Origin: Fidelibacterota bacterium
GTDB taxonomy: Bacteria > Pseudomonadota > Alphaproteobacteria > Rhodospirillales > Rhodospirillaceae
Length of the DNA stretch: 64,000 nucleotides
Direction of reading: 5' to 3'
Assembly (NCBI GenBank): GCA_947476895.1
Contig: CANJRX010000010.1
Location: 1 to 64,000, forward strand
Under the pieces are notes generated by a model. The model was not told the origin of the DNA. It saw nothing but the letters and a program-made list of their open reading frames with translations, and ran no database searches. Position numbers and translations under genes: made by a program. Shown here piece after piece: positions 34,679 through 55,418 of this stretch; positions within the stretch are counted from its first letter, which is position 1, and each line of letters opens with the position of its first letter.

Positions 34679-35502
34679 AACCGCAGCAGTCCGCGCATTG
34701 CGGCGCTCAGGTATCCAACTTTGCTGAGTTCTACGCGTGTGGCGATGGGATCTTCGTGGGCCAAACGTTCGGTCAGCTTGTCGGCAATGGAAACGATGAC
34801 GGCGGTTTCGGCGGCCAGGCTGCGGTGCTTCATGGCCTTCGGTAACTTACGCGCCTCGATGAGCAATACTTCTGTGCCGGCGACGCAACGATCCAGCACG
34901 CGGCGCAAGTTTGGTGTGGCGGCGGCGAGTTTTAAATCCTCGACCGTCGCGCCTTCCGCACGCATCCAATCCTGGGGCAGATAGACCCGGTCCATCTCGG
35001 CGTAATCTTTGGCGCAGTCTTGCAAATGATTGATCACTTGCAGCGCGTTGCACAACGCGTCCGACAGTGGATACAGCGCGCGGTCTTCGCCGTGCAGGTC
35101 GCACAGGAAGCGGCCCACGGGTGCGGCTGAGCGCAGGCAGTAATCAACCAGTTCGTCCCAGTTTTCATAGCGCGGCTTCACCGCATCCTGTTTGAAAGCT
35201 GAGATCAGATCGAGGCCGTGCGCGGCCGGGATGGCCGTTTCGATGAGCGTTTGGCGGAGTTTGTGGGCTTTTGCATAGGCCGGGTCATTGTCCTCGCCCA
35301 CGAGCGCAGCAGCGAAACCATCCAGGCGGGCGATTTTTTCCGCAGCGGGCAGGGCGGGGTTGTCGGCAATGTCGTCGATGGCGCGGGCAAAGGCGTAATA
35401 AGCCGCCACATGGGGACGCAGATCGCGCGGGATTAGCCAAGACCCCACCGGGAAATTCTCATCCCCCGCACCCTTGCCCGATGGTGTTTCAACTGTGCCC
35501 AC
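34669..35502 (-). CDS. hpnC: Squalene synthase-like HpnC (277 aa)
   Basis: A squalene/phytoene-synthase family enzyme that converts presqualene diphosphate to hydroxysqualene in the HpnCDE route. The Asp-rich motifs are ARAIDDIADN near 40 and NHLQDCAKDYAEMDR near 157. It starts with GTG after GGGGACGA and is the first gene of the minus-strand squalene/hopene unit. The first about 12 residues are divergent. A promoter should lie in the 127 bases before it, shared with the divergent DegT gene. Confidence 0.95.
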   Translation of the reverse strand: MGTVETPSGKGAGDENFPVGSWLIPRDLRPHVAAYYAFARAIDDIADNPALPAAEKIARLDGFAAALVGEDNDPAYAKAHKLRQTLIETAIPAAHGLDLISAFKQDAVKPRYENWDELVDYCLRSAAPVGRFLCDLHGEDRALYPLSDALCNALQVINHLQDCAKDYAEMDRVYLPQDWMRAEGATVEDLKLAAATPNLRRVLDRCVAGTEVLLIEARKLPKAMKHRSLAAETAVIVSIADKLTERLAHEDPIATRVELSKVGYLSAAMRGLLRLWF

Positions 35503-36768: not shown

Positions 36769-38265
36769 TTAAGCGCCGGTGCGGATTTTATCGAAGGCTT
36801 CGTGCATGGCTTTCGATGCGGCATCGAGCGCCGCGCCCTTATCCTGCGACCACTTGCTGTCTTTCGCCAGCGTCGCCTGCTGTTCCTTCAGCATGCGTTG
36901 GACTTCGGCCGGCTGCGGACCGCCGAGGCCTTTGCTCGATTGCACCATGTTTTCAGCCGACAAAGCTTGGCGGAAGCGCGCTTCGGTCAGCGGAAGTTTG
37001 ACGACCGAAATTTTGAAATCCTTCGCCGCGGTTTCATAAATGCGCTGGGCATCGGTATATTTGATCTCGCTCGGGCGCAGTCTTGCATTGCGGCCGAAGG
37101 TCACGAGTTCTGAGGCGAAGTGGTGGCCCACACGGAAAGGAACTTCACCTTCGCGTTGTAGAATGTCGGCCAGTTCCGTCGTCACCGAATAGTCGGCGTT
37201 CACTTCATCCAGCGCGCGCGCCGGATCAAACTTGAGCTCGCCGATGAACGCGGCCAGCTGATCGCACGCCGAAGCAGCCCCTTTCAAGGCCTGCTCAGAA
37301 TCGTCGCCTTTATAATCGCTCATCCCGGCCGGCGTGTTATGCGCCTTGACGAGATAAGTCACAGTATCACCCACGACCTGACCGGTGATGATGCGCAAAG
37401 ACGTCATGCCGGACGGGTTGCGCTTCTGCGGCATGATGCTGCTGGTTCCGGTCAGCTCGCCTTCTTCCAGGATGATCCATGGCGTCGACATGCGGTACTG
37501 CGCCTGGATGTCTGCGGTGAAGGTGCTGATCGTCACGGCGATGGAGGCGGCGATGGATGCAAGTTCAACGCCTGTGTCGATAGGCGCAATCTGATTAGCG
37601 CCGAAGGAGTTTGTGATAACGCCTTCAAAACCCATCAGCTGTGCAAGGCGGTTGCGATCCACCGGGAAGCTCGATGTGCCGAGTGCGCCCGTACCCATAG
37701 CCGAGCGATTGACGTCGGCGTAGGCCGCCTTCAAACGCTGAGAGTCGCGCTCAAGAGCTTCGCTGTATCCCAGCAGCCAGTGGCCGAAGGAAATTGGCTG
37801 GGCTTGGACGCCGTGCGTATAGGCCGGCACCAGAGCGTCGGGATATTTGGCGGCAAAACCCAGAAGCGACGCGCGGGCTTTATCCAGGCTCAACATGGTT
37901 TTGAGAACTTGTTCACGCTGCGTCAGGCGGCGCGTCACGGCGCCGATTTCCTGGCGGCTGCGACCGGAGTGCAGGCGGGTCACGTCGGGACCGCCTTCTT
38001 CGATCAGCAGCGGTTCGACCTGAAGATAATCGCTGGAGCGCAGCTTTTTATCCGCGTCGGCGCGGATGCCGACTTTTTCCACGGACTCGGCAATGGTCTT
38101 GCCGAGCGGTTTCGGAACGATCTTGGTTTCGACCACCATTACGGTGGCGGCGCGGTTCAGCTCGTTCAGCCAGTAAAAGCCGTCGCGCGCCGGACGGGCT
38201 TGCTGCGCGGCAGCCGGAGTCACCAGCGCCACAATAGCAACGCCCGTCATCAAATACTTAAGCAT
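36769..38265 (-). CDS. Exported argininosuccinate lyase-like protein (498 aa)
   Basis: A fumarase/aspartase superfamily protein most like argininosuccinate lyase, with a signal peptide (about 1-20, cut after TPAAA). The superfamily signature GTSSIMPQKRNP lies near 272-283; RLHSGRSRQEI and HTPAGM-like segments match ASL regions. It is longer than cytosolic ArgH (about 460). An exported ASL is unexpected, because arginine synthesis is cytosolic, so it probably acts on another amino or carboxylic substrate in the periplasm. It is alone on its strand. Confidence 0.8.
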   Translation of the reverse strand: MLKYLMTGVAIVALVTPAAAQQARPARDGFYWLNELNRAATVMVVETKIVPKPLGKTIAESVEKVGIRADADKKLRSSDYLQVEPLLIEEGGPDVTRLHSGRSRQEIGAVTRRLTQREQVLKTMLSLDKARASLLGFAAKYPDALVPAYTHGVQAQPISFGHWLLGYSEALERDSQRLKAAYADVNRSAMGTGALGTSSFPVDRNRLAQLMGFEGVITNSFGANQIAPIDTGVELASIAASIAVTISTFTADIQAQYRMSTPWIILEEGELTGTSSIMPQKRNPSGMTSLRIITGQVVGDTVTYLVKAHNTPAGMSDYKGDDSEQALKGAASACDQLAAFIGELKFDPARALDEVNADYSVTTELADILQREGEVPFRVGHHFASELVTFGRNARLRPSEIKYTDAQRIYETAAKDFKISVVKLPLTEARFRQALSAENMVQSSKGLGGPQPAEVQRMLKEQQATLAKDSKWSQDKGAALDAASKAMHEAFDKIRTGA

Positions 38266-42132: not shown

Positions 42133-43053
42133 TTAGAAGGGCGAGAGCCCCGCTGCGGAAGCGGCGTTCTCGATGGGGACGGCAAAACCGATGCCGATGA
42201 AAACGCGTTGCTCGGTGGGATTGAGAATGGCCGTGACGATGCCGACGACTTCACCCTTCGCCGTCACCAGCGGTCCACCCGAATTGCCGGGATTGGCCGC
42301 AGCGTCGAACTGAATGAGGTTTGTGAGCGTCTTTTTGCCCTTGGGGTTCAGGTAGTCGCGGCGCATGCCCGAAACGATGCCCGAAGACACCGACGGGCCG
42401 ATGCCGAAGGGGTGGCCCACGGCGATCACTTCGTCGCCCGGGCGCAGGCCGCGTGTGGACGCAAGCGTGGCGGGTTTCAGATCGTCGGGGACCGCATCTG
42501 TCTTCAGCACGGCCAGATCATCTTCCGGCTGGACCGAGACGACGTGGGCATCGGATTTGGTGCCGTCGAAGAAGGTCACCGAAATACGCTCGGCGCCCGC
42601 AACGACGTGGATGTTGGTTAGGATGGTGCCGGACTCTTCAATCACGACGCCGGTGCCGACGGCCTTTTCGGTATCTTCGCTGTCTTCCAAGCCCACCTGA
42701 TTCACGCGCACCACCGAGGGACGAATGATGTCGTAAGCCACGGACGCGCGTGACGGCGCCATGGGTTGTTTCTCGAGGGTATGAAGCACGGCGGAATCGA
42801 TATCGCGCTGCGTGAGTTTGCGCGGCAAGGTGTACTGGTTATACCCGGCGACAATGGCCAGAGTCAGAAGCACGCTGCCGACGATCGACAGCGGCCGGCT
42901 ATAGCGCGAGGTAAAGCGGCGGAAAGCGACAACGACACGCGGCGGCGGTGCCGGCGGCTCAATGGGTTCTTCGATGGCAGCCTGTGCGGCGCGGCCGATC
43001 TGGGCATAAGGGCCCATTCTGCGGGATTGGCTGTAGAGCGTGACGCGCTTCAT
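42133..43053 (-). CDS. Membrane-anchored S1C serine protease without PDZ domain (306 aa)
   Basis: A trypsin-like protease of the HtrA/Deg type. A cytosolic, Pro-rich N-terminus (about 1-52) is followed by one membrane helix (about 53-72) and a periplasmic protease domain with His near 147 (TNIHVV), Asp near 179 (DDLAVL) and Ser near 258 (GNSGGPL). It ends soon after the protease fold, so it has no PDZ domain. GGGGAG lies before the ATG. It precedes moxR on the same strand and could process proteins handled by that system. Confidence 0.88.
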   Translation of the reverse strand: MKRVTLYSQSRRMGPYAQIGRAAQAAIEEPIEPPAPPPRVVVAFRRFTSRYSRPLSIVGSVLLTLAIVAGYNQYTLPRKLTQRDIDSAVLHTLEKQPMAPSRASVAYDIIRPSVVRVNQVGLEDSEDTEKAVGTGVVIEESGTILTNIHVVAGAERISVTFFDGTKSDAHVVSVQPEDDLAVLKTDAVPDDLKPATLASTRGLRPGDEVIAVGHPFGIGPSVSSGIVSGMRRDYLNPKGKKTLTNLIQFDAAANPGNSGGPLVTAKGEVVGIVTAILNPTEQRVFIGIGFAVPIENAASAAGLSPF

Positions 43054-43315
43054 GGTGGCGACTCCCCGCCGGTAAATCAGCGCAGTTTTGAACTTGAAGT
43101 CCTCCCCAGGACTAAAAACCTGAGCTTCAAATCCCCCGCACTGAACCTGAAGCGTAGTCCAAATTTCTAGGATTCACAAAGCGCTTTCCGACGCCCGTTC
43201 CTTACGTAAACGACAGTTTAAACAGGACAAATCGCACCGGTGTTACCGCGTGTTACACGGGTAGGCATCCGCTGTAATGCGCCAAGAACTTGCGTTATGG
43301 CGGTTCTTCAAGCGG

Positions 43316-44320
43316 TTACGGGTGCTTCGTCGCGGGGGCAGGGTTCTTCAGCCCAAACCAGCCGCCAATAGCCAGCCCAATGGCTGTCCACACAAGTTCG
43401 CGACCACGGCGCAATAAAGCGACTGTAAGCCCGATTTCGGACGATCCGGTCAGGGCCTGGCCGATCAAGGTGATGGCGCCGTCCTGGACCCCTAGATGTC
43501 CCGGCACAAAGAAGGTCGCGGCGCGGACCAGCACGATGGTGGCTTCGACCATCCAGGCGTCGGCCATGGAAATGGGATGGCCTAGGAACCAGAAAATCAA
43601 AAACATCTCGACCGCGCCGCAGAACCAATTGACGAAGGCAAACACGAACGAGGTTGCGAACCGCCCCGGCGTGTGGCGGACGAAGGTGAACAGGTGCTCT
43701 TCCACATCCCGCATGGCTTGAAGCCCGCGTCCCAAACGGTCGGCCCAGCGGCTTTGGCCGAGGCGTTGCTGAAGAATGGCCAGCGCACGCATGTGGAGTG
43801 CGGCGAACACCATCAGCATAAACGCCGTGATGACGAGGGCGGAAATCAACAGGGCTTTTTCCAGTACCGGCGAAAGAACCCCCCGATTGGAAATGAGGAC
43901 CGCGCCTATAAGCACAAAAGGCGCCATGGCCAGGCTGTTGACGGTCTGAATCAGAAGCAGAGACGCGGTGCCCTCGCGGTACGAAACGTCGTAATGGCGT
44001 TTCAGCAGCAGCGCTTTGAAAGGCTCGCCGCCGAGCGAGCCGAAAGGTGTCACGACGTTGAGGGCCTCGCCGACCAATTGCACCAACAGCAATCGCCAGG
44101 CCCACAGCGCATTGACGACAATGCTGCGGAACATCAAAAGCCATGAGGCTACATCCGCGAAGAAGCCAATCGAGAAGGCCAGCACGATAGCAACCGCGCC
44201 AAACCAGCCAATGACGGAGATGTTCTCTTGAACGGCCTCTAGATCGACATCGGCGAGCAGCCAAACGAAAAGCGCCAGTCCCCCGCCAAGGGTGACGAGC
44301 TTAAATAGCTTCGCGAGCAT
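43316..44320 (-). CDS. hpnL: Hopanoid-associated membrane protein HpnL (334 aa)
   Basis: An integral membrane protein with about eight helices, related to the lysylphosphatidylglycerol synthase-type transmembrane family (UPF0104). Features include the GEALNVVTPFGSLGGEP segment near 85 and RAATFFVPGHLGVQDG near 270. It is last in the radical SAM-hpnJ-hpnI-epimerase-hpnL run, 3 bases after the epimerase gene. It is presumed to move hopanoid intermediates across the inner membrane; this role is not proven. Confidence 0.88.
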   Translation of the reverse strand: MLAKLFKLVTLGGGLALFVWLLADVDLEAVQENISVIGWFGAVAIVLAFSIGFFADVASWLLMFRSIVVNALWAWRLLLVQLVGEALNVVTPFGSLGGEPFKALLLKRHYDVSYREGTASLLLIQTVNSLAMAPFVLIGAVLISNRGVLSPVLEKALLISALVITAFMLMVFAALHMRALAILQQRLGQSRWADRLGRGLQAMRDVEEHLFTFVRHTPGRFATSFVFAFVNWFCGAVEMFLIFWFLGHPISMADAWMVEATIVLVRAATFFVPGHLGVQDGAITLIGQALTGSSEIGLTVALLRRGRELVWTAIGLAIGGWFGLKNPAPATKHP

Positions 44321-44323
44321 TGA

Positions 44324-45322
44324 TTACGCCGCCGCGCCGGAACCGGCGACGGGCTTGGTCTTTTCCTGCGGCACCCAGGCGAGGGTCGCGTGCAGGCCTT
44401 CGCGCAATTCAACGCGCGGATTGAAATTGAGCAGAGCAACGGCGCGGTCCATGGTGGTGACCGAGCGGCGGATGTCGCCGGCGCGGGCCGGTTCATGACG
44501 CACAGGCGACGCCGAGCCCGCGAGTTCCAGAATGGTATGAGTCAGCGCGTTGATGGTGACTTCAACGCCGGTGCCAATGTTGATGATGGCGTTGTTGCCG
44601 GCATCGCTCAGAAGCGCGCGCACCACGGCTTCGGCGACATCGGTGACGTAAACGAAATCGCGTGTCTGATTGCCGTCATCGAAAATGGTGATGGGCTGGC
44701 CGGTGACAGCACGCTCGAGGAAAATCGAGATGACGCCGGAATACCAGCTTTTAGGGTCTTGGCGCGGGCCGAAGACATTCATAAAGCGCAAAGCAGTGAA
44801 CGTCAGGCCGTAAAGGCGCGCGTAATAATCCAGGTAAAACTCGGCTGCCAGCTTGTCGATGCCGTAAGGCGACGTGGGGCGTGCGCGGGACTCTTCAGAT
44901 ACCGGCACCGGTGCGTCGTCGTCGTAGACCGCCGAGCTGGAAGCAAAGAACACTTTCGCGACCTTGTTGTGGCGCGCGTATTCGAGAATGCGGGCCGTCC
45001 CGGCCAGGTTGGTCTGAATGTCGCCCACCGGATCGTCCATGGAAATCGGCACAGCGGTTTGTGCTGCGAAATGCGCGATGCGCTCGATGCGGCCGAAGCG
45101 GCGTACCATGCCGGCGAACGCCGCCGTCAGATCGGTGGTGATATCGGCATCGACGAAATTGAAGCGCGGATGGTCAATCCACTGCTCGATGTTCGTAAGG
45201 TAGCCGGTGGAAAGGTTATCCAAAACCGAGACGCGGTAGCCCGCATGCATCAACAGGTCGACGGTGTGGCTGCCGATAAAGCCGGCGCCGCCGGTGACAA
45301 GGATGTGGGCTTTCGTGTTCAT
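44324..45322 (-). CDS. NAD-dependent sugar epimerase in the hpnI operon (332 aa)
   Basis: An extended SDR epimerase of the UDP-glucose/UDP-GlcNAc 4-epimerase type. The NAD motif is VTGGAGFIGSHTVDLL, followed by FASSSAVYDDD, the catalytic YGIDK near 151, and NVFGPRQDP near 186. It overlaps hpnI by four bases and lies before hpnL. It is not hpnA, which is elsewhere in the window. It could make or interconvert the UDP-sugar donor that HpnI uses, or modify the sugar ring. Confidence 0.88.
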   Translation of the reverse strand: MNTKAHILVTGGAGFIGSHTVDLLMHAGYRVSVLDNLSTGYLTNIEQWIDHPRFNFVDADITTDLTAAFAGMVRRFGRIERIAHFAAQTAVPISMDDPVGDIQTNLAGTARILEYARHNKVAKVFFASSSAVYDDDAPVPVSEESRARPTSPYGIDKLAAEFYLDYYARLYGLTFTALRFMNVFGPRQDPKSWYSGVISIFLERAVTGQPITIFDDGNQTRDFVYVTDVAEAVVRALLSDAGNNAIINIGTGVEVTINALTHTILELAGSASPVRHEPARAGDIRRSVTTMDRAVALLNFNPRVELREGLHATLAWVPQEKTKPVAGSGAAA

Positions 45323-46518
45323 AAGCTTTTGGCCGCCGGGTTCGAAGAAAGGTCGGTATCGGTCAAGGGCATTGCAGCTTCACGCGCCACGATGCGTCCA
45401 TCTTTCGTAAGCCCGAAACGGTGGCCGCGCCACTCGAAACTGCGGCGCAAGAAGGCCGTGCACCATGACATCAATGCAAGAATATCGCGCAGCGGCAGCA
45501 GCCACAGGGCGCGCAAACCCTCGCGGTCGTTGAGGTAAGCGCTGGAGATCCAGGCCGCGGTGCCAAGGCGGATCACAAGGGCGAGAGCCAACACATCCAT
45601 GCCGATGCTGTCGAAATTGCGCGTGATTGCGAACAGCAGCGCAAAGGGAATGGCGCGCGTGAAAATCGTAAGCGCGAACCCGACAGGATTGGCGGCGCGG
45701 GTGTTCTGATCCCAATAGAGCTGATGATTCCACCAGCGTGTGAATGTCGGGTAGTCGGCGAGGATGTCGACGGTATGGGGCAAAAGCACCATGCGTTTGC
45801 CGAGACCGATCAGGCGGCGGCCCAGTTCGTAATCTTCCACGAGATATTCGCCGAGCGCAGCCATGCCGCCGGTGCGCTCTAAGTCCGACTTGCGGAACGC
45901 CACGCTGGCGCCGATGCAAAAGGGTGCGATCTGGTTGACGTGCGAGAACACCAGGCTCGGTACGAAATCGGTATTGAACGTCAGGAGTTCCAATTTTTCG
46001 AACCAACGGTCGGCCGCAATGGCGCGGTAAAGCGAGCAGACGTAGCCCACATCGCTGTCGCGCAAAGGTGCCGCCATGGTGCGCAGATAGTCGGACGCGA
46101 GACGCACATCGCTGTCGCTGATGATCAACACGTCGTGACGCGCGGCAGTGAGCGCGTTGACGAGGTTCTGCACTTTTCCATTCACCACCGGCTCGCTGGG
46201 CTTGATCACCAGGGTCACGCGGTCAGGGAATTCGGCTGCTAAGCGGCGCAAGAGCGGCAGCGCCGGCTCGTCGGTGCGCTGTACCGAGAGCACAATCTGG
46301 TAGTCAGGATAATCCTGGCGGCAGAGGCTGAGCAGGTTCTGCTCCAGGCCTTTGTCTAAGCCGTAGATCGGCTTCAGCACTGTGATGGGCGGCAGATAGC
46401 TTTCAGGCGTCGACTCAGCCTTGAAAAACTTGGCGGCTGTGTGGACCGACAGTGCGCCATAGATACTGCCCCCGATGACCGGGAGAAGCAGCGCTGCCTG
46501 AATGAGGTCGAATGCCAT
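45319..46518 (-). CDS. hpnI: Hopanoid glycosyltransferase HpnI (399 aa)
   Basis: A ceramide-glucosyltransferase-like GT2/GT21 enzyme that adds GlcNAc to bacteriohopanetetrol, the first step toward the cyclitol ether. An N-terminal helix (about 6-28) is followed by the GT core: ITVLKPIYGLDKGLEQNL, DSDVRLASDYL near 135, EDYELGRRL near 230 and a QxxRW-type RWWNHQLYWDQ near 265, then C-terminal membrane helices. It overlaps the epimerase and follows hpnJ by 19 bases. Confidence 0.93.
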   Translation of the reverse strand: MAFDLIQAALLLPVIGGSIYGALSVHTAAKFFKAESTPESYLPPITVLKPIYGLDKGLEQNLLSLCRQDYPDYQIVLSVQRTDEPALPLLRRLAAEFPDRVTLVIKPSEPVVNGKVQNLVNALTAARHDVLIISDSDVRLASDYLRTMAAPLRDSDVGYVCSLYRAIAADRWFEKLELLTFNTDFVPSLVFSHVNQIAPFCIGASVAFRKSDLERTGGMAALGEYLVEDYELGRRLIGLGKRMVLLPHTVDILADYPTFTRWWNHQLYWDQNTRAANPVGFALTIFTRAIPFALLFAITRNFDSIGMDVLALALVIRLGTAAWISSAYLNDREGLRALWLLPLRDILALMSWCTAFLRRSFEWRGHRFGLTKDGRIVAREAAMPLTDTDLSSNPAAKSL

Positions 46519-46537
46519 GATCAGGTAACTGGAAACT

Positions 46538-47989
46538 CTAAGCTGCGGTCTTTTTCTGGTCGCGGTTTTCGCGCTTGTTCAGGAACTTCATGAACTCGAC
46601 GCCTTCACGCAGGCGACGCTTCATCATTTCCCAATCCGTCAGCATCTCGGAGGTGATCTCCCAGATTTTGCCGGGGCGGAAGTAGTACTGCGAATAGAAC
46701 TGCTCGACGCTCTCGAAAATGTCTTCATGGCTGAGGTGCGGATAGCTGATCGAGCTCACCTGAATGCCCTGATCGGCCACCAAACGTCCGCCGTTGTCTT
46801 CTTCCAAGAGCCAGCCGTTCTGCTTGGCTTGGTTATAAAGGTAAGTGCCCGGATAAGCCGCGGCCAACGAAACCTGCAGCGTGTAGGGGTTCACTTCCTT
46901 CGCAAATGCGATGGTTTCTTTGATGGTCTCTTTGGTTTCGCCGGGCAGGCCGACGATGAAGGTGCCGTGGATTTTCAGGCCCAGTTCGCGGCAGTTCTTT
47001 GAGAACTCGCGCAGCTGCTCAACGCGCATGCCCTTTTTGATGTTGTGCAGGATCTGCTGGTTGCCGGACTCATAGCCGCAGACCATCAGGCGCATGCCGT
47101 TGGCCTTGAAGATCTCAAGCGTCTTGCGCGGCACGTTGCCCTTGGCATTGCACGACCACATCACGCCGAGTTTGCCGAGGCCTTTGGCGATCTCTTCGGC
47201 GCGCGGCAAATCGTCGGTGAACGTATCGTCGTCGAAGAAGAACTCCTTCACTTGCGGGAAGTATTCCTTGGCTTTGCGGATTTCATCGACCACGTGCTCG
47301 ACCGAGCGCGTGCGATAGACGTGACCGCCGATGGTCTGGGGCCACAGGCAGAAGGTGCAGCGCGATTTGCAGCCGCGGCCGGTATAGACCGACAGATACG
47401 GGTGATTCAGATAGCCGATGAAGTAGTCTTCAATCTTCAGGTCGCGCTTATAGACGTCCACCACATGGGGCAGTTCGTCCATATTGTGCAGCAGTTCGCG
47501 CGGCTTGTTGCGGATGATCTCGCCTTTGGCGTTGCGCCAGGTGAGGCCGTCGATGTCGGCGTAGTCTTTGCCTTCGGCGACTTCCTTACAGGTGAAATCG
47601 AATTCGCTGCCGGCGACCCAATCGAGCGATGTGCTGCCCTTCATGGACTGATAGGGATCGACCGCCACGTGGGCGCCGATCATGCCGATGATGATTTTCG
47701 GATTGCGTTGCTTAAAGGCCTGCGCCACGCGGATGTCTGACGGGAACGACGGGGTCGAGGTGTGCATGACCAATAATTCGTAGTCGTCGGCCATGGGCAA
47801 CACGTCATCGAGCGTTTTATCGCTGGCGGGCGCATCCACAAGCTTCGAGCCGGGCACAAGGGCGGCGGGCTGGGCCAGCCATGTCGGATACCAGAAGGAC
47901 CTGATTTCGCGCTTTGCCTGGTAACGGGACCCGGCGCCGCCATCGAAACCTTCAAAGGACGGCGGGTTCAGGAACAGGGTTTTCATCAT
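46538..47989 (-). CDS. hpnJ: Hopanoid cyclitol-forming radical SAM enzyme HpnJ (483 aa)
   Basis: A B12-binding-type radical SAM enzyme that contracts the glucosamine ring to the cyclitol head group of bacteriohopanetetrol cyclitol ether. An N-terminal Rossmann domain (about 1-170) precedes the radical SAM domain with CKSRCTFC near 207-214. Text such as GSRYQAKREIRSFWYPTWL is HpnJ-like. It lies between a second radical SAM gene (43 bases upstream) and hpnI. Confidence 0.93.
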   Translation of the reverse strand: MMKTLFLNPPSFEGFDGGAGSRYQAKREIRSFWYPTWLAQPAALVPGSKLVDAPASDKTLDDVLPMADDYELLVMHTSTPSFPSDIRVAQAFKQRNPKIIIGMIGAHVAVDPYQSMKGSTSLDWVAGSEFDFTCKEVAEGKDYADIDGLTWRNAKGEIIRNKPRELLHNMDELPHVVDVYKRDLKIEDYFIGYLNHPYLSVYTGRGCKSRCTFCLWPQTIGGHVYRTRSVEHVVDEIRKAKEYFPQVKEFFFDDDTFTDDLPRAEEIAKGLGKLGVMWSCNAKGNVPRKTLEIFKANGMRLMVCGYESGNQQILHNIKKGMRVEQLREFSKNCRELGLKIHGTFIVGLPGETKETIKETIAFAKEVNPYTLQVSLAAAYPGTYLYNQAKQNGWLLEEDNGGRLVADQGIQVSSISYPHLSHEDIFESVEQFYSQYYFRPGKIWEITSEMLTDWEMMKRRLREGVEFMKFLNKRENRDQKKTAA

Positions 47990-48032
47990 GACGGGAGGCC
48001 CTTTTGGCAGTGCAATATCAAGATCGAAACTA

Positions 48033-49196
48033 TCAGAAACGAATTAGCCACGGCAGCTCTTCCATAACCGCGCCGAGTGAGCCTAAATTCCCCTTTCGGG
48101 TCAAGGCCTTAACTCCGCCTACGATGTCACCTTTTTTAAGCGCCTGATAGGTGTCGTGGACGGATACGCCGACGTGGTGCATGACCGAGGAATCCCGGTA
48201 ACAGTCGATCATGCAGCGGGTGCAGCCGTCGCGGACCAGCTTGGTCTCGTCGAACTCGCTGATGTGGCACATGGGCTTTTCCCAATAGTGGCAGCGCCAC
48301 AGCATGAGATCCCAATCGAGATAGAAATAGCGGAAGCCGCCGAGGCAGGGGAATTTCTGCTCGTCGCCGGTGATGTAGCGCTGCATCTCTTCCAGGCCCG
48401 CTGTGGGGTTCAGGACGTGGATGCCGGATTTCTTCAGCGCTTTGACCTTGTCGAAGGCCGCCAGCAATTCTTCTTTCGAATAATTGACGAGCTCTGACGT
48501 CGAGAAACCAAGGAAGTTGGAGCCGAGTTCCGTGACCGGGTACGAGAACGTGACCGCGCCAAAGCCCAGCGACAATAAAAACTCCGGCAGCTTTTCATAG
48601 TCGAGCAAGCGGCTCATCGTGACCGAAGCTGTGGACTGCACGCCAAGTTCTTTCAGCACGCGGTTGGCGTCTTTGATCTTCTCACAAACGCCCGGCAGAC
48701 CGCGGTTATTCTCGTGTGCTTCAATCTCGGCGGCATCGATGGAAATGATGAAGCTGGAGGTGCCGGCAGCGTGCAGCGCCTTGATCTTCTCGGGCTTAAA
48801 CAGCCCGCCGTTCGAAACCAGCATGACCTTCATGCCGAGGTTCGAGGCATGCTGCGTGAATTCGATCAGGTTCGGGTGCAGCGTCGGCTCACCACCTGTC
48901 CACACCATGTAGCGCACGCCGTTGCGATAGAGCGTATCGATGGCGTCCAGGGCACCCTGGCGCTCAACGTACTTCCATTCCGACTTCGGAAACTTGTCGC
49001 GCGCGAAATTGCAGAAACCGCAGTTGGCGTTGCAGGCATTGTTGAGCGCGAACTGCGCGAAGCCCGGACCGCCCTTGTCGAGCACCAGCCGCAAGGTGTC
49101 GAAAGACACCGGGTTGGCCCCCGGCTTTTGCGCGGCCTTTACGGGCTCGGGAGTTTTTAGGACGCGAAGTTGGGCGGTTTGTTCAATCTGCGACAT
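48033..49196 (-). CDS. Second radical SAM enzyme heading the hpnJ-hpnI operon (387 aa)
   Basis: A radical SAM protein with the cluster motif CNANCGFC near 54-61, glycine motif WTGGEPT near 98, and several later Cys (CLGGF, CHYW, CTRCMIDCY), suggesting a SPASM/twitch-like domain with extra iron-sulfur clusters. It is different from HpnH and HpnJ. As first gene of the unit with hpnJ, hpnI, epimerase and hpnL, it is a candidate for hopanoid head-group chemistry. Its start has a weak ribosome site. I cannot name a known function. Confidence 0.85.
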   Translation of the reverse strand: MSQIEQTAQLRVLKTPEPVKAAQKPGANPVSFDTLRLVLDKGGPGFAQFALNNACNANCGFCNFARDKFPKSEWKYVERQGALDAIDTLYRNGVRYMVWTGGEPTLHPNLIEFTQHASNLGMKVMLVSNGGLFKPEKIKALHAAGTSSFIISIDAAEIEAHENNRGLPGVCEKIKDANRVLKELGVQSTASVTMSRLLDYEKLPEFLLSLGFGAVTFSYPVTELGSNFLGFSTSELVNYSKEELLAAFDKVKALKKSGIHVLNPTAGLEEMQRYITGDEQKFPCLGGFRYFYLDWDLMLWRCHYWEKPMCHISEFDETKLVRDGCTRCMIDCYRDSSVMHHVGVSVHDTYQALKKGDIVGGVKALTRKGNLGSLGAVMEELPWLIRF

Positions 49197-49229
49197 GAAA
49201 TTCTTTTGCTGAGGGGCGCGAGACCCGCG

Positions 49230-49291
49230 CCTATACTCCGTCCCCTATGCTGTTGTCTTATAAATGACAATTTTTCGCGGTGCAGTATAGG
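49230..49291. promoter_or_regulatory. Divergent promoter region with inverted CCTATACT boxes
   Basis: The 115 bases between the radical SAM start (49196) and hpnM (49312) hold CCTATACT at 49230-49237 and its complement AGTATAGG at 49284-49291. Each contains TATACT, a plausible -10 box reading in opposite directions. Paired -35 boxes are not clear. The two sites could also be halves of one operator. Confidence 0.35.
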
Positions 49292-49311
49292 TCCAACTGA
49301 GGGAGCCCGGC

Positions 49312-49941
49312 ATGTTTAGCAGCTTATTTAGGAAATTGTGGCTTTTGGGTCTCCTGCTTGCCGGGGCTTCCCTCACTTTTGGTTCAGCTGTGGCACAAGA
49401 TGCGGCGCCGACCGCAGTGGTAGAGCGCTTTCACGCCACGCTCATCACGAATATGAAAAACGGCAAGGCGCTCGGCTTCGACGGCCGCACCGCCAAGTTG
49501 ACGCCCGTGGTGAAAGAAACTTTCGACATCCCGACCATGGCGCGCATTTCGACCGGCGCGGCGTGGGGAAAAATGTCTGAGGCCGAGCACGCCGACATCA
49601 TCGCCGCGTTCACCGCCTGGACCGTGGCCAACTACGCCGGCAACTTCAGCGCCTTCGACGGCGAAAGCTTCGAGACCAAAAGCCAATCGCCCGATGACGG
49701 CAAAGGTAACATCCTGGTCAACACGCTCTTGAAGCCCAACGGCATGGCGCCGGTGGCGTTCAATTACCGTATGCAGAAGATTGGTGGCAGCTGGAAGGTG
49801 GTCGACATTTATCTCGACGGCGCCATCAGCCAGCTTGCAACTTTCCGCGCACAATTCGCGGCGGTACTGAAGCAGGGGAGTGCTGCTGATCTTGTGGCGC
49901 ATATGAAGCGCTTGGCGGCGGAAGCGAAGAAAGAGACTTAA
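49312..49941 (+). CDS. hpnM: Hopanoid-associated MlaC-like periplasmic protein HpnM (209 aa)
   Basis: An exported protein of the MlaC/Ttg2D lipid-carrier family. The signal peptide spans about 1-28 (cut after AVA). The mature part shows VVKETFDIPTMARISTG and a late INYRM-like strand followed by WKVVDIYLDG, all family features. It likely carries hopanoid or phospholipid through the periplasm with HpnN. GGGAG precedes the ATG. Its stop overlaps the stop of the convergent hpnN. Confidence 0.93.
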   Translation: MFSSLFRKLWLLGLLLAGASLTFGSAVAQDAAPTAVVERFHATLITNMKNGKALGFDGRTAKLTPVVKETFDIPTMARISTGAAWGKMSEAEHADIIAAFTAWTVANYAGNFSAFDGESFETKSQSPDDGKGNILVNTLLKPNGMAPVAFNYRMQKIGGSWKVVDIYLDGAISQLATFRAQFAAVLKQGSAADLVAHMKRLAAEAKKET

Positions 49942-52544
49942 GCTTTTTCTGGCGGCTTACCCAACAGCGCCGGCAGGAAGATCAGCGTCGCCAGCAACGT
50001 ATACGCCAGCGCCAGCGTCAGAAGAATTCCCAAGCTCGCCGTGCCAGTATGTTTGGAAATCGCGAGGCTTCCAAAAGCCGCGGCCGTTGTAAGCGCGCTG
50101 TAAAGCATGCCGCGCCCGGCGGGTGAAGCCAGCAACACGCCTTCGCCATCACGCCAGGCCGTGACAAAATAAATTGGGAACGTCACGCCGATGCCGAGCA
50201 ACAGCGGCAGCGCGATGATGTTGGCGAAGTTGATGGCGAGGCCCATGACCGAAAAGGTGCCCAGCGTCAGTAACGATGCCAGTAGCAATGGTGCCAGCGC
50301 GCGCGCGACGTCGGCAGGCCGGCGAAAGACAATGAACAGCAAGATCGTGATGGCGACCAGCGCCAGCACGGCGGCGGTCATGAAGGCGCGCGTTACGATA
50401 TTTCCGCTTTCGTAAATAATCAGCGGCTCGCCGATGGCGTCGGGTGCGACGGCTTGCACGGCTTTCAGGAAACGGTTGAGGTTTTCGGCCTCGGCTCCGG
50501 CTTGGCGCGGGAAGGCTTGCACGCGGTAACGGCCATCTTTGGCCATGAAGCTCGCGCGGATGTCGTCGGGCAAATCTTCGAGGCTGACGGGCGCCGGGCC
50601 TAAGCCGGCGGCGAGCGGCGCAATCGCGGCATCGAAGCCGGTTAACAGTGACGTCGAAAGTTTGTCGAAGTTTTCCTGTGTTGGGTTTCCAAGCAAGCGG
50701 TCAAGCACTGTGACAAGGCGCTGCCCGGCATCGCGCAAGGGGCCGGTTGCACCCGGTTTCTCGACATAAGCTTTGGCTTCATCGCGGGCGAGCTGGGCCG
50801 CGCTAATCAGCTCCGCATGCGTCGGCGCTGGTTTCTGCGCGACGCCCGGCGTCAGCACTGGCCCCATCAGGAACGAGAGCTCCTGAATCGCCATCAGCTT
50901 GTCGGTTTGGTTTTCGGGGATGACGTCGAAGATCGTCAACGTGTGGCCAACTTCCGGCACATTGTTCAAACGCGCGGCCAAGGTTTTGGCTTCGTCCGCC
51001 GTTGAAACCAGCACGCTCATGGAGTTGGGATTGATCAGCGGATCGTCCATCAACTCCAACGCGGTCGACATTGACTCAGTGGTGGGGTCTTTCAGCTTCA
51101 AGGGATCGAAGTCGAAGGCGAGTTTGGGTAAGGCCGCCAAAGCAGCAACAGCCAAAATCGCCGTCGCGGTCAGCACAAGTTTGCGCTTCGCCAGCAGCAC
51201 CGCGTTGATGGGCGCAGCCCAACGGTAGCCCACTTCGGCCTGTTCGCCCGGCACACGCATCAGGCGCAGCAGGGCCGGCAGGAATGTGAAACTGAGAACA
51301 AGCGCGATGATCATGCCGCCGCCCGCAATGACGCCGAGCTGCGATACACCGCGATATTCGGTCGGCAGGAATGAGAAGAATCCAAGCGCCGTAGTGGCGG
51401 CGGCGAGGGTGAGGGGCTTGGCCATCACCGCGCCGGCCGCATCAAGTGCTGCGTCGAGGCTACCTTCGCCGCGCGCATGGCGTTCAGCGCGGTATCTCAT
51501 GGCGAACTGAATGCTGAAATCGACCGCGATGCCGACGAACATCACGGCAAACGCGACGGAGATGAGATTGAGTTCGCCAATGGAAATCGTCGCCCAGCCG
51601 AGCGTGAGCAGAAAGCCGACCAGCAACGTTATCAGCGCCGCGAACACGAGGCGCGCCGAACCCAGCGCCATAAACAAGAGAATGCCGACCAACACGACAG
51701 AGATAAGGCCTGATGTGCCTGTACCTTCGGCCACGGTCGCGAATTCCTCATCCGACAACGGAATCTGTCCGGTGAGACGCACGCGAATGCCGTTCTCGGG
51801 CGTCAGGCCCAACTCGCGCGCGGCGTCGCGGATGGCAGCGCTGGCAACGCCGCCTTGCTCCAAGGCTGAAAGGTCGAGCTTGGGCTGGGTCAGCACCATG
51901 GCCCGGGCCGACATGCCCGCAGGTCCGAAGCCTTTGAACAAACTCGCCCAGTTCAAAGTGGCCGGTTTGTTGTCGAGCACTTTTTCAATAACACCGGACG
52001 CCTCTTGGGCAGCGGGTGCGATTTGCGCGGCGGCGGTTTCGCCTTCACGCGCGGCGCGGAAGGCAAACTCAAACAGGCGGAAAACGCCGCGCGCGTTTCT
52101 ATCGGTGGCGATGGCGCCCAGGAACGGCTGCGCGCGCGCGAGTTCAATGGAGAGGTCATCCAACTCATCAGCGGAGAGATAGAGGAGACCATTGCGGGAG
52201 AAGAAGTCGCCGCCGGTCGGGTTCTGTACGCTGAGAAAAATATCGCTGCGCGGTTTCAGCTTCTCGGTCAGCTTATTGGCCGCGGCTTGGGCTTCCATGG
52301 CTGACGCGGCGTCGATCACGGCAACGATCAAATCCTGCTCTGCGGGAAACTGTGCGTCGAAGCGCGCTTGGGCCTCGCGGAAGTCGAGACCGGAATCAAA
52401 CAGCGCTAGAGAATCGGTGTTCATGCCGAGGCCGCGCAAGGCGCCGAACACGGAGCCGGCGGTCAGCAGCAGGATCAGCAATATCGCAACGGCCGGTTTG
52501 CTCCGGCAGGCGCGTACGAGGTTTTGGGCGAAGGTGCTCAACAT
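49938..52544 (-). CDS. hpnN: Hopanoid RND-type transporter HpnN (868 aa)
   Basis: A large inner-membrane RND/MMPL transporter that moves hopanoids toward the outer membrane. It has one N-terminal helix, a periplasmic domain (about 40-250), a block of five or six helices (about 260-430), a second long periplasmic domain and a second helix block (about 715-860). The sequence AVMFVGIAVDFSIQFAMRYR in the first block is the usual RND core. It converges on hpnM, its presumed partner, with stops overlapping. Confidence 0.94.
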   Translation of the reverse strand: MLSTFAQNLVRACRSKPAVAILLILLLTAGSVFGALRGLGMNTDSLALFDSGLDFREAQARFDAQFPAEQDLIVAVIDAASAMEAQAAANKLTEKLKPRSDIFLSVQNPTGGDFFSRNGLLYLSADELDDLSIELARAQPFLGAIATDRNARGVFRLFEFAFRAAREGETAAAQIAPAAQEASGVIEKVLDNKPATLNWASLFKGFGPAGMSARAMVLTQPKLDLSALEQGGVASAAIRDAARELGLTPENGIRVRLTGQIPLSDEEFATVAEGTGTSGLISVVLVGILLFMALGSARLVFAALITLLVGFLLTLGWATISIGELNLISVAFAVMFVGIAVDFSIQFAMRYRAERHARGEGSLDAALDAAGAVMAKPLTLAAATTALGFFSFLPTEYRGVSQLGVIAGGGMIIALVLSFTFLPALLRLMRVPGEQAEVGYRWAAPINAVLLAKRKLVLTATAILAVAALAALPKLAFDFDPLKLKDPTTESMSTALELMDDPLINPNSMSVLVSTADEAKTLAARLNNVPEVGHTLTIFDVIPENQTDKLMAIQELSFLMGPVLTPGVAQKPAPTHAELISAAQLARDEAKAYVEKPGATGPLRDAGQRLVTVLDRLLGNPTQENFDKLSTSLLTGFDAAIAPLAAGLGPAPVSLEDLPDDIRASFMAKDGRYRVQAFPRQAGAEAENLNRFLKAVQAVAPDAIGEPLIIYESGNIVTRAFMTAAVLALVAITILLFIVFRRPADVARALAPLLLASLLTLGTFSVMGLAINFANIIALPLLLGIGVTFPIYFVTAWRDGEGVLLASPAGRGMLYSALTTAAAFGSLAISKHTGTASLGILLTLALAYTLLATLIFLPALLGKPPEKA

Positions 52545-52572: not shown

Positions 52573-53433
52573 CTAGTACCCATCATCTGCAGACCAGTCG
52601 CTGGTCCAGCGTGGGTCGGTGGCGCTCCCGGCGCGCAGGAAACGGATGTCCGTGGAAATCCGCATGTGATCGGTATCGCCCGGATCGGTCGAGGCATGAA
52701 CGATGGTCGGCGTGTGAATGACCACGTCACCGGCGCGGTAATCGGCAGAGAGCCAGCGGCGGCCGGTGCGGTCGGCAACCCATTTGAGATCGTGGCTCAA
52801 AGGCCGCTTATCGCTACGGTCGGTGGGCGCGGCGTCGCGCACGTTACTTTCCAGATCGGGGTCCTGATGAGACCCTTCGAGATACAAAAGTCCGCCGGAG
52901 ATGAGGGGGCTATCGCCGAGTGGCACCCAGATGGTCACCACGTCGGCGGCCACACCTTCTATATAGGTGCGGTCCATGTGCGGGCGGCTGGCGACTTGGC
53001 GGCCCGGCAGGAAGTGGCGCAAGGGCGTGCGCTTGATGCGCGTCGCAGGCGCATCAAAGAACGTCTCGGCCAAAGCCTTGAACACCGGCAGGTTGGCGAA
53101 ATCCTGGAAAACGCCGGAGCGCACGAAGTCGTGGGCCGGGTGACCAGGGAATCCATGGCGCGGCAGATCGGCGGGCACTTGGCCGGTGAACGCGCCGCGG
53201 CGTGTATCGCCGTCTTTGCAAAGTTCGGCCGGAAAGCGGCTGAGATAGGCCTCGCGCAAATCGAGCACGACGTGCACCGGGATTGCGTCGCGCAGCATCA
53301 CGTAGCCGTCGGCGTTGTAACGCGCGCGCAAGCTCGCGGCATCGACCGTCGGATCGGTGCTCTTGAGTTCGGCAAAATAATGCGGTGTGAACGGGATCGA
53401 AGCGCCGTTCGAGGTGAGTGTCGCGAGCGTCAT
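52573..53433 (-). CDS. Phytanoyl-CoA dioxygenase family (PhyH-like) enzyme (286 aa)
   Basis: An Fe(II)/2-oxoglutarate oxygenase of the PhyH type. The iron ligands are HMDRTY (His and Asp near 150) and a distal His in HTPTIVHAS near 245, with Arg a few residues on to bind 2-oxoglutarate. The GLLYLEGSH strand and YRAGDVVIHTP are family marks. The ATG at 53433 is preferred to an upstream TTG. It lies between hpnN (28 bases) and hpnK (94 bases) on the same strand, so hydroxylation of a hopanoid is possible but unproven. Confidence 0.85.
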   Translation of the reverse strand: MTLATLTSNGASIPFTPHYFAELKSTDPTVDAASLRARYNADGYVMLRDAIPVHVVLDLREAYLSRFPAELCKDGDTRRGAFTGQVPADLPRHGFPGHPAHDFVRSGVFQDFANLPVFKALAETFFDAPATRIKRTPLRHFLPGRQVASRPHMDRTYIEGVAADVVTIWVPLGDSPLISGGLLYLEGSHQDPDLESNVRDAAPTDRSDKRPLSHDLKWVADRTGRRWLSADYRAGDVVIHTPTIVHASTDPGDTDHMRISTDIRFLRAGSATDPRWTSDWSADDGY

Positions 53434-53526
53434 AGTCCCCAACGTAATAATTGTATTTTCATCCTATCGGGCGAAGCCGGGAATGCAAGGCCCTGGGAAA
53501 TATAGTGAAACAACATGACTAAAAAA

Positions 53527-54354
53527 TCACGTACGTAGGGGTGCGAGGGGCAAATCACTGAAACCCTTGGGCATTAAGCCAAGGGCTTGCAGGCGCAGGG
53601 CTACGGGCCGGCTGGTCAGGGCGTGCAGTTCGCCCAGACGATCATAGCCGGGCGCGTTGGCTTCCAGCATCGCGGTCGCCGTCGTGGCGGGATGAAAATA
53701 GAACTCGCTGACGCCGTCCTGAAGCTTGTCTAAGGCGGACAGCACGCGATCTTCCGTGAGATGGCCAGTGTCGCGTAAGCCCACCAGCACATCGTTGATG
53801 CGAAGGCCCGCGTTCTTCAATCGGCGGCGCATGAGCCAGAGCCACAACGCCAATCCCGGCTGCGGCGGTTCGCGCGGCACGCGCACGCCCGCACTCTGCC
53901 AGCCGAATTCGCGCAAAAGATCGAGCATGATCGTGAGCACCGTGGGGTGCAGATGCATATGGTTGTGGGCGTTGACGTGATCGAGTTTAAGCCCCGTCGC
54001 GCGGAAGGCCTCAAACTGCGCGCGGATTTCTTTTTTGAGATCGCGGCGCGCGGTGGGAGAGAAGAACCACTTGATGCCGGCGCTGACGAGGTTCGTGGAA
54101 AAAAGGCCCGTGCCATCTACCAGTGACGGAATTTCGTGCGCGGGAAGTAACGGGCGTCCATCCACCAAGGTCAGATGCAGGCCGACTTTCAGCCGCGGCA
54201 GGCGTCGGGCGCGCTCAAGTGCATCGGCGGCGGCGGGCGCGGCGACCATCAGGCTCGCGGCGCTGAGCACGCCTTCGCTATGGCCCTTTTCGACTGCGGC
54301 ATTCACCTCGGTGCAGAGGCCAAAATCGTCGGCGGTGAAGATGACTTGTTTCAT
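53527..54354 (-). CDS. hpnK: Hopanoid deacetylase HpnK, ChbG/YdjC family (275 aa)
   Basis: A metal-dependent deacetylase that removes the acetyl group from the N-acetylglucosaminyl hopanoid made by HpnI, ahead of HpnJ. The metal site is TADDFGLC (Asp9-Asp10) plus NAHNHMHLHP near 129-138; GLHLTLVDGRPL near 58 fits the family. Length is typical. It is divergent from hpnA with 65 bases between starts. Confidence 0.92.
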   Translation of the reverse strand: MKQVIFTADDFGLCTEVNAAVEKGHSEGVLSAASLMVAAPAAADALERARRLPRLKVGLHLTLVDGRPLLPAHEIPSLVDGTGLFSTNLVSAGIKWFFSPTARRDLKKEIRAQFEAFRATGLKLDHVNAHNHMHLHPTVLTIMLDLLREFGWQSAGVRVPREPPQPGLALWLWLMRRRLKNAGLRINDVLVGLRDTGHLTEDRVLSALDKLQDGVSEFYFHPATTATAMLEANAPGYDRLGELHALTSRPVALRLQALGLMPKGFSDLPLAPLRT

Positions 54355-54419: not shown

Positions 54420-55418
54420 ATGACGGCTTTAGTTACAGGAGCAACCGGTTTTATCGGCTCGGCGGTGGCGCGGCGACTTTTGGCGCGTGGCGAGGCGGTC
54501 CGTGTGCTCGCGCGTGCAGGTGGCGACCGGCGCAATCTCGCGGGGCTCGACATCGAAATCATTGAAGGCGATTTGCGCGATCCGGCAGCGCGCGAAAAAG
54601 CCGTGAAGGGTATAGATAGCCTCTATCATGTAGCGGCGGATTACCGCTTGTGGGTGCCCAATCCCGCCGAGATGTATGCGACCAACGTCGAAGCCACCAC
54701 GGCGCTGTTGCGCGCCGGTGCGGACGCGGGCGCCAAGCGTTTGGTCTATACCAGCAGCGTCGCGACGCTCGGCATTCCGACCGACGGTTCGCTCGCCACC
54801 GAAGACACGCCGGTGCAGCTTGTCGATATGGTGGGACCTTATAAACGGTCCAAATATATGGCCGAAGAAGCCGTGCAGGATTTGGTGCGCAGCGAGAAGT
54901 TGCCGGTGGTGATCGTCAATCCCACCGCGCCTGTAGGACCGCGCGATGTGAAGCCCACGCCGACGGGGCGCACGGTGATTGAAGCAGCAGCGGGCCGCAT
55001 GCCGGCCTTTGTCGATACGGGTCTCAACCTCGCTCACGTGGACGATATCGCCGAGGGGCATGCGCTCGCGCACGACAAGGGTGTGATCGGCCAGCGCTAT
55101 ATTTTGGGCGGCGAGAATCTGACTCTGCAGCAGATCCTCCAGCGTATTGCGGCGCTGACCGGCGGCAAGGCGGCCACCATCAAAGTGCCGCACGGCCTGA
55201 TCCTGCCCATCGCCTATGCCGCAGAATTCGCCGCTCGTCTGTTCAAGTCGGGTGAGCCCTTTGTCACCGTGGACGGCATCAAACTCGCGCGCAAACGCAT
55301 GTTCTTTACCCACGCCAAGGCCGAACGCGAGCTTGGCTATACGGCGCGGCCCGTCGATGAAGCCCTGAGTGATGCCATCGCCTGGTTCCGGGCGCATGGT
55401 GCATTACCGCCACGCTGA
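54420..55418 (+). CDS. hpnA: Hopanoid-associated sugar epimerase HpnA (332 aa)
   Basis: An NAD(P)-dependent extended SDR protein, closest to the dihydroflavonol-reductase-like HpnA family. The nucleotide motif is VTGATGFIGSAVARRLL, followed by HVAADYRLW near 77, SSVATLG, and the catalytic YKRSK near 141. HpnA genes co-occur with hopanoid clusters, but their substrate is not known. AGGA precedes the ATG. It is divergent from hpnK. Unlike the epimerase at 44324, it has the HpnA-specific segments. Confidence 0.92.
   Translation: MTALVTGATGFIGSAVARRLLARGEAVRVLARAGGDRRNLAGLDIEIIEGDLRDPAAREKAVKGIDSLYHVAADYRLWVPNPAEMYATNVEATTALLRAGADAGAKRLVYTSSVATLGIPTDGSLATEDTPVQLVDMVGPYKRSKYMAEEAVQDLVRSEKLPVVIVNPTAPVGPRDVKPTPTGRTVIEAAAGRMPAFVDTGLNLAHVDDIAEGHALAHDKGVIGQRYILGGENLTLQQILQRIAALTGGKAATIKVPHGLILPIAYAAEFAARLFKSGEPFVTVDGIKLARKRMFFTHAKAERELGYTARPVDEALSDAIAWFRAHGALPPR

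Follow-up and report, generated by a model that had tools for sequence, protein, structure and literature searches.

A radical S-adenosylmethionine gene ahead of hpnJ in an alphaproteobacterial hopanoid island: a probable accessory enzyme of the bacteriohopanetetrol cyclitol-ether branch

The stretch of DNA analysed here (the window) comprises 64,000 nucleotides, positions 1 to 64,000 of contig CANJRX010000010.1 in assembly GCA_947476895.1, labelled Fidelibacterota bacterium in GenBank and placed in the Rhodospirillaceae by GTDB. An open reading frame (ORF) with an ATG start at 48033-49196 on the minus strand encodes a radical S-adenosylmethionine (SAM) protein of 387 residues with no assigned reaction, called RS below. 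Relatives of RS occur almost exclusively in genomes that encode HpnJ, the radical SAM enzyme that forms bacteriohopanetetrol (BHT) cyclitol ether, and we think that RS is probably an accessory enzyme that tailors the head group in the branch from BHT to this lipid. The gene lies 43 bases before hpnJ on the same strand (46538-47989, minus; 804.5 bits against TIGR03471, cut-off 577.6), as an initial annotation of this DNA had noted. Next in the series on the minus strand are a gene for a divergent form of the HpnI-type glycosyltransferase (45319-46518; TIGR03472 316.1 bits, barely over the cut-off of 310), one for a short-chain dehydrogenase/reductase (SDR) of the nicotinamide adenine dinucleotide-dependent epimerase/dehydratase type (44324-45322; Pfam Epimerase 209 bits), and one for an HpnL-like membrane protein (43316-44320; TIGR03476 140.6 bits, under the cut-off of 195.65; Pfam LPG_synthase_TM 109.3 bits), which is followed by an HtrA gene. 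The SDR resembles nucleotide-sugar epimerases and scores 182 bits against the GalE model, under its cut-off of 262.3. Gaps down the series are 43, 19, -4 and 3 bases, the hpnI and SDR genes overlapping by 4 bases, and hpnM (49312-49941, plus strand; TIGR03481 178.8 bits, cut-off 160.1) starts divergently 115 bases upstream of RS. This layout, a divergent hpnM and then a tight tandem of five genes, fits the annotation's proposal that RS is the first gene of an operon. A sigma-70 consensus scan of 43000-50000 returned no site.

The reading frame is under constraint. Compared with the homologue at locus L006, RS differs at 34, 27 and 150 first, second and third codon positions over 386 codons; against that at L009 the counts are 46, 29 and 159 over 384 codons. 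Given this third-position excess and homologues in records of several phyla, RS is a constrained coding gene, beyond what chance would produce.

RS belongs to the radical SAM superfamily by its cluster motif, domain, GGE motif and fold. The cluster motif C55-x3-C59-x2-C62 (codons 55-62, 49011-49034, minus strand) and the GGEP motif at 101-104 are both invariant, with C55, C59, C62 and G101-P104 kept in 85/85 aligned homologues (an alignment that counts one genome twice, as L003 and L020). Pfam Radical_SAM (PF04055) matches at 73.6 bits, cut-off 29.5, and is the sole Pfam match at an E-value of 0.001. The AlphaFold2 model has a predicted local distance difference test score (pLDDT) of 87.3 and a predicted template modelling score of 0.86; compared with 1000 PDB chains it reached a Z of at least 8 with 268, and the matches listed are led by radical SAM enzymes. 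The core spans residues 45-220 or so, and a twitch-like auxiliary-cluster region follows at about 284-335. Here six cysteines (codons 284-332, 48201-48347, minus strand), seen in the translation and the alignment as putative ligands of one or more auxiliary Fe-S sites, form the pattern C284-x17-C302-x7-C310-x14-C325-x2-C328-x3-C332. All are invariant in the 85 homologues except C310, which is kept in 82. Both the CxxxCxxC motif and the Cys-rich C-terminus that the annotation had pointed out are therefore real and conserved. A further cysteine, C171, is kept in 83/85, both exceptions being distant relatives.

The annotation had also raised the question of a SPASM or twitch domain. The SPASM pattern comprises seven cysteines, CX9-15GX4C-gap-CX2CX5CX3C-gap-C (PMC6231123); RS has six in its C-terminus, and the glycine site of the GX4C element would be residue 297, a leucine, so we rejected RS as a SPASM protein. 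Enzymes such as PqqE, anSME, AhbD and NirJ share with RS a core and a Cys-rich C-terminus, but their seven-Cys pattern has no equivalent in RS. A twitch domain, a truncated form of SPASM, binds one auxiliary cluster through cysteines that flank a beta hairpin or come after a helix. In the RS model, C284 and C302 flank predicted strands at 290-293 and 298-300, and the CX2C at 325-328 comes next. The C-terminus is similar to a twitch domain except for two additional cysteines, and its cluster is putative.

At the family level RS stands apart. Among its best 25 of 47 NCBIfam matches it passes no cut-off, the top match reaching 73.8 of 400 bits, and 50 aligned RS relatives bring up a similar set of models. 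TIGR03470, the HpnH model, is absent from those best 25 of 47 matches, the last of which scores 35.4 bits (cut-off 225.05), and membership of the HpnH family was rejected. Profile comparison does show a radical SAM core common to both (98.6% probability, 161 columns, 20% identity), but only the core aligns, and the HpnH cysteine at position 106 falls on V127 of the window's RS. HpnJ (TIGR03471) is a member of the same superfamily and the genetic partner of RS, yet a separate family: it matches several B12-binding-type radical SAM models, none of which is among the best 25 of 47 RS matches. The annotation was thus right in calling RS unlike HpnH and HpnJ at the level of families, with the nuance of the core common to HpnH.

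The best solved relative by Foldseek, VIA-align and profile search is BlsE, a cytosylglucuronate decarboxylase (PDB 7vob, TIGR04466). VIA-align gives a Z of 25.6 over 287 aligned residues at 3.0 Å for the RS model 41-387, the next-best Z being 21.3, and BlsE is also the best PDB sequence match (profile E 3.9e-22, profile positions 55-181). The GGEP motif is common to RS and BlsE, where it has been described (PMC3715490), and TIGR04466 matches 50/50 aligned RS relatives at an E-value of 1e-10 or better, the best being 4.9e-23. The reaction of BlsE is the decarboxylation of a hexuronate, glucuronate (PMC3715490). However, the two proteins are 19% identical, BlsE works in a nucleoside antibiotic pathway, and RS reaches 68.8 bits against the TIGR04466 cut-off of 400, so it was rejected as a member of that family. 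A second match is the twitch-type 2-deoxy-scyllo-inosamine dehydrogenase BtrN (PDB 4m7t; profile E 4.1e-6, Z 15.3), which oxidises an aminocyclitol (PMC9012708) and binds its auxiliary cluster by four cysteines (PMC6231123, PMC9012708). The counterpart of this set in RS could be C284, C302, C325 and C328. The sequence match to BtrN is confined to the core (profile positions 52-161), however, RS has two further conserved cysteines, and the substrate of BtrN is water-soluble.

To describe the surroundings of RS, we kept 80 of 206 confirmed RS relatives from a species-genome scan. Genes in these loci were counted by tblastn, with gaps taken as the distance between match ends; longest-frame ORF lists misname genes in GC-rich loci. 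The loci carry the titles Rhodospirillaceae, Gammaproteobacteria, Nitrospirae, Deltaproteobacteria, Geobacter, Methylomirabilota, Planctomycetota, Verrucomicrobia, filamentous cyanobacteria and others. Labels of several genomes look doubtful ("Akkermansia" and "Marinimicrobia" for metagenome bins), and we use the spread, not the exact taxa. Of six hpn genes, one or more are present in 35/80 loci and in 27 of the 44 that have at least 3 kb on each side; HpnJ is present in 25/80. In 17 of these 25 loci it lies on the same strand as RS and at most 120 bases away, with RS first in 12 and HpnJ first in five (L031, L033, L043, L049, L052). Because opposite orders occur, the pair appears to have been assembled more than once. 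In G500, from the verrucomicrobial class, the two matches lie 110 bases apart. A distant subfamily, 38-41% identical to RS and without C310, is found at L086:9751-10761 (L005), L087:8178-9248 (L004) and L140:8930-9961; these stretches gave no match to the hpn queries used, and HpnJ is encoded in two of the three genomes.

Co-occurrence at the genome level is more consistent than linkage. We tested 50 RS-bearing genomes drawn from the 80 loci, in 42 of which the RS locus itself lacks HpnJ. Searches detected HpnJ in 49/50 (47 over the cut-off), HpnH over its cut-off in 47/50, and HpnK over its cut-off in 45/50 plus one weaker match; HpnK had no match in the two Trichodesmium-labelled genomes or in G299 and G334. 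Among 14 control genomes, none was over the HpnJ, HpnK or HpnH cut-off. Since 41 of the 42 genomes whose RS locus shows no HpnJ encode it elsewhere, RS-hpnJ linkage often fails while co-occurrence holds. Three class samples give the same picture. Among 289 alphaproteobacterial genomes, four have RS, 24 HpnJ and three both; in the class of a cyanobacterium (145 genomes) the counts are 2, 13 and 2, and in that of a verrucomicrobial genome (208 genomes) 21, 31 and 19. E-value limits for RS were 1e-30 in the alphaproteobacteria and 1e-60 in the other two samples, and for HpnJ 1e-80, 1e-120 and 1e-60, in the order given. Two of the 31 verrucomicrobial-sample HpnJ genomes (G494, G604), both without RS, fall under the family cut-off, and G318, G324, G325 and the centre of that sample are also among the 50 RS genomes. 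Pooled over 642 genomes, RS is present in 27, HpnJ in 68 and both in 24, so that HpnJ is found in 24/27 RS-positive but 44/615 RS-negative genomes (Fisher 1.4e-22, with genomes treated as independent); three distant RS relatives of about 40% identity are counted here, and without them the figure is 22/24. Leaving out the three centre genomes gives 21/24 against 44/615 (Fisher 8.6e-20, on the same treatment). RS is therefore nearly restricted to HpnJ-bearing genomes, and both co-occurrence with and linkage to the cyclitol-ether branch are observed. Identities of RS and of HpnJ are also correlated across 42 genomes (Mantel r 0.73, 0/2000 permutations), a result that shared ancestry alone could give.

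This distribution bears on whether RS serves some other pathway, for example peptide maturation as many SPASM/twitch enzymes do, its proximity to hopanoid genes being incidental. Many of its neighbours in sequence and fold, BlsE apart, mature peptides or cofactors or are viperins, and many verrucomicrobial RS loci show no adjoining hpn gene. We nevertheless regard such a role as highly improbable: HpnJ is present in 19 of the 21 verrucomicrobial-class RS genomes though mostly unlinked, and the model has no folded domain ahead of the core, residues 1-29 having a pLDDT below 50.

The converse dependence does not exist. Most HpnJ-positive genomes in the class samples lack RS: 44 of 68 overall and 21 of 24 among the alphaproteobacteria. 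The notion that RS always travels with hpnJ in alphaproteobacteria fails on the latter count. The annotation had further suggested a step that pathway descriptions lack; the many HpnJ genomes without RS rule out a missing obligatory step, while an accessory modification stands. For the same reason we read RS as an accessory, patchily distributed enzyme of the cyclitol-ether branch. The HpnJ tree, scored at 73 tips of which 42 are RS-positive, requires a minimum of eight changes between presence and absence of RS. It could be proposed that RS helps HpnJ in ring contraction, as a partner on which some HpnJ lineages depend and others do not, and the adjacency to hpnJ in both orders and the nearly full nesting of RS in HpnJ genomes would suit such a partner. 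This seems unlikely, given how common HpnJ without RS is and how RS-positive and RS-negative HpnJ interleave on the tree. In addition, a survey of alphaproteobacteria reports hpnI, hpnJ and hpnK in 31/36 strains with cyclitol-ether-type components, the excerpted text naming no further gene (PMC12583986).

The window's own genus provides a finer view of the association. Among 19 genomes, including that of the window, ten have RS and HpnJ, eight have neither, none has HpnJ alone, and one, G698, retains a fragment. G698 is rated 100% complete and carries a frameshifted, truncated RS stub without HpnJ. The stub, a pseudogene at L144:10255-10542 on the minus strand, has hpnM on one side and the HtrA gene on the other; missing are the remainder of RS, hpnJ, hpnI, the SDR gene and hpnL. 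Still present in this stretch are hpnE, hpnD, hpnC, hpnA, hpnM, hpnN and the genes for a PhyH-type dioxygenase and a DegT-family aminotransferase. No HpnK match was found in the 20-kb stretch, the only part searched, and hpnK may be elsewhere; nor does the stretch hold a full hpnB, merely a weak 56-residue match overlapping hpnD. In G698, then, hpnJ and hpnI were lost along with RS, and other hopanoid genes were retained. The stub amounts to a natural knockout, and the lipids of this organism are worth measuring. Outside the genus, RS of G706 is surrounded by hpnJ, hpnI, the SDR gene, hpnL and the DegT gene; G709 and G720 encode HpnJ but not RS; their HpnI is of the common type, and they have no SDR.

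To find genes that accompany RS, we compared 46 RS-positive hpnJ regions (two of which, L020 and L088, are the same place) with 33 RS-negative ones (L121 and L141 come from one genome, L130 and L136 from genomes with a distant RS relative). With that one region counted twice, the SDR, at an identity of 45% or above, occurs in 10/46 RS-positive regions and the divergent HpnI at 42% or more in 12/46; each occurs in 0/33 RS-negative regions. Several RS clusters contain both; no RS-negative region of the 33 does. The window's HpnI is 27-37% identical to the HpnI matches adjoining hpnJ in RS-negative regions. The joint occurrence of the SDR and divergent HpnI suggests a donor sugar other than uridine diphosphate N-acetylglucosamine in the window's lineage. 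Because cyanobacterial and verrucomicrobial RS-positive hpnJ regions lack the SDR, the divergent HpnI and the DegT protein, it is RS itself that relates to HpnJ.

The window's DegT-family aminotransferase (35630-36763, plus strand; Pfam DegT_DnrJ_EryC1 311.5 bits; 211.2 bits against the PseC model, under its cut-off of 423.5) lies beside hpnC and is 74.6% identical to a DegT protein beside hpnL in L014. At 45% identity or more, DegT is present in 5/45 distinct RS-positive hpnJ regions (6/46 as counted) and 0/33 RS-negative ones. This bias, and its presence in the window, might point to RS and DegT as a pair like BtrN and BtrS, in which RS would turn a cyclitol into a ketone and DegT would aminate it to a diaminocyclitol hopanoid. 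We consider such a pair very unlikely, since most RS-positive regions have no DegT. Moreover, G698 keeps DegT (88% identity) after the loss of RS, hpnJ and hpnI, so it is not specific to the branch. Kept where hpnJ was lost, DegT may serve another hopanoid or sugar step. Beside it, an argininosuccinate-lyase-like protein (36769-38265, minus strand) scores 222.5 bits against a cut-off of 279.5 and has an N-terminus that looks signal-peptide-like by eye; perhaps it is not a true ArgH.

The PhyH-type dioxygenase gene (52573-53442, minus strand; Pfam 49.6 bits) lies between hpnN and hpnK, and it is conserved there in L006, L008, L009, L013 and L017. It is retained in G698 despite the loss of hpnJ and hpnI, and we view its product as a candidate hydroxylase for pentol and hexol side chains. 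This matters for the possibility that RS itself alters the side chain or ring system, for example by introducing a double bond, or the additional hydroxyl groups found in bacteriohopanepentol and -hexol, for which the enzymes are stated to be unknown in the excerpted survey (PMC12583986). A role of this kind is quite unlikely. HpnJ should not be required for making such compounds, but the distribution of RS is nested within that of HpnJ, and the dioxygenase of the island is the more natural hydroxylase. In alphaproteobacteria, the excerpts record pentols, hexols and their derivatives for species of Rhodospirillales and Sphingomonadales, whereas RS is present in only 4/289 alphaproteobacterial genomes. 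The nesting is thus what directs us to the head group as the target of RS, and away from side-chain hydroxylation or desaturation.

The remainder of the window is a hopanoid island with most known pathway genes. Near RS are hpnN, encoding the hopanoid transporter (49938-52544, minus strand; TIGR03480 928.5 bits, cut-off 751.85, and 861.8 bits against a second model, NF052374, under its cut-off of 1100), the deacetylase gene hpnK of the cyclitol-ether branch (53527-54354, minus; TIGR03473 351.4 bits, cut-off 232.6) and hpnA (54420-55418, plus; TIGR03466 483.5 bits, cut-off 367.65). Farther off are the adenosylhopane synthase gene hpnH (23591-24748, plus; TIGR03470 544.3 bits, cut-off 225.05), an hpnG-like phosphorylase gene (24710-25402, minus; TIGR03468 175.0 bits, slightly under the cut-off of 187.1) and the squalene-hopene cyclase gene shc (27391-29313, minus; TIGR01507 758.5 bits, cut-off 431.1). 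They are followed on the minus strand by hpnE (29315-30598), hpnD (30599-31480), dxs (31508-33391), hpnB (33560-34678) and hpnC (34669-35502), each over the cut-off of its own model.

What might RS do in this branch, which leads from BHT to BHT cyclitol ether through HpnI, HpnK and HpnJ? Cyclitol ring structure, the pathway logic of BtrN and BtrS and the NeoN-type epimerases provide the background for comparison. The C55/C59/C62 cluster would reduce SAM to yield a 5'-deoxyadenosyl radical, which would abstract hydrogen at a carbinol carbon, either in the aminocyclopentitol that HpnJ produces or in the glucosamine preceding it. Two outcomes are conceivable. A ketone would form if an electron passed to the twitch-like auxiliary Fe-S site (C284, C302, C325, C328, perhaps with C310 and C332), and an epimer if a cysteine such as C171 gave hydrogen back from the other face, the mark of a radical SAM epimerase being a hydrogen-donating catalytic Cys outside the cluster motifs. 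That C171 is this donor is a guess from its conservation, and between ketone and epimer we cannot choose. Hydrogen abstraction from a head-group carbinol carbon is, on balance, what we would expect, by analogy with the nearest structure, which acts on a sugar, and another match, which acts on an aminocyclitol. The head-group role that the annotation drew from gene position gains support from comparative genomics (49/50 RS genomes, 24/27 in the class samples, and the genus pattern).

Several observations weigh against a head-group role in this branch. Most of the profile matches lie in the radical SAM core, and similarity of fold does not establish function; C171 is a weak candidate for the hydrogen donor, being replaced in 2/85 homologues. 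None of the six hpn genes is found in the stretches of 45/80 RS loci, some of which are short. The annotation had named homologues lying mostly away from hopanoid genes as a sign against its idea, and as to linkage these loci do go that way, whereas co-occurrence holds up. The Fisher tests ignore the relatedness of genomes. HpnJ was undetected in one of the 50 RS genomes (G300) and in three of the 27 class-sample RS genomes (G112, G632, G675), although these may be incomplete assemblies; G112 has a completeness of 81% and only a distant relative of RS. As the deletion in G698 seems to be a single event, adjacency to hpnJ may be the whole reason for the loss of RS there. Finally, structurally unassigned isomers of BHT cyclitol ether and BHT glucosamine have been reported (PMC12583986), but from strains that could not be linked to RS.

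A further reading, which we hold tentatively and at somewhat less than even confidence, is that RS makes a head group that the pathway as now described lacks, for instance an aminocyclopentitol that has been oxidised or epimerised, and became spread, through repeated gain or loss, over cyanobacteria, verrucomicrobial groups, planctomycetes, Methylomirabilota and proteobacteria. Its products would possibly be among the late-eluting BHT cyclitol-ether or glucosamine isomers, and the lipid would be taxonomically meaningful in sediments.

We found no description of RS in the mainly open-access literature consulted. In acidobacteria, genes of unknown function, ug1 and ug3, adjoin hpn clusters, as does ug2, often annotated as an alcohol dehydrogenase (PMC5462960); whether ug1 or ug3 is RS could not be checked. 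The authors of the 2025 survey of alphaproteobacteria inspected the surroundings of hpn clusters and, in the excerpts, mention no obvious candidates apart from hpnA, hpnB, hpnL and hpnM; the excerpts also list several hopanoid variants without a known enzyme (PMC12583986). What is new here, judging from its sequence and distribution, is probably a radical SAM hopanoid enzyme with no assigned reaction, separate from HpnH and HpnJ. Hopanoids are widely used molecular fossils, and RS is a candidate hopanoid gene that offers a genetic signature tied to the cyclitol-ether branch in a subset of the genomes that have it. The question it opens is which cyclitol-ether variant is made by bacteria with RS and not by those with HpnJ only.

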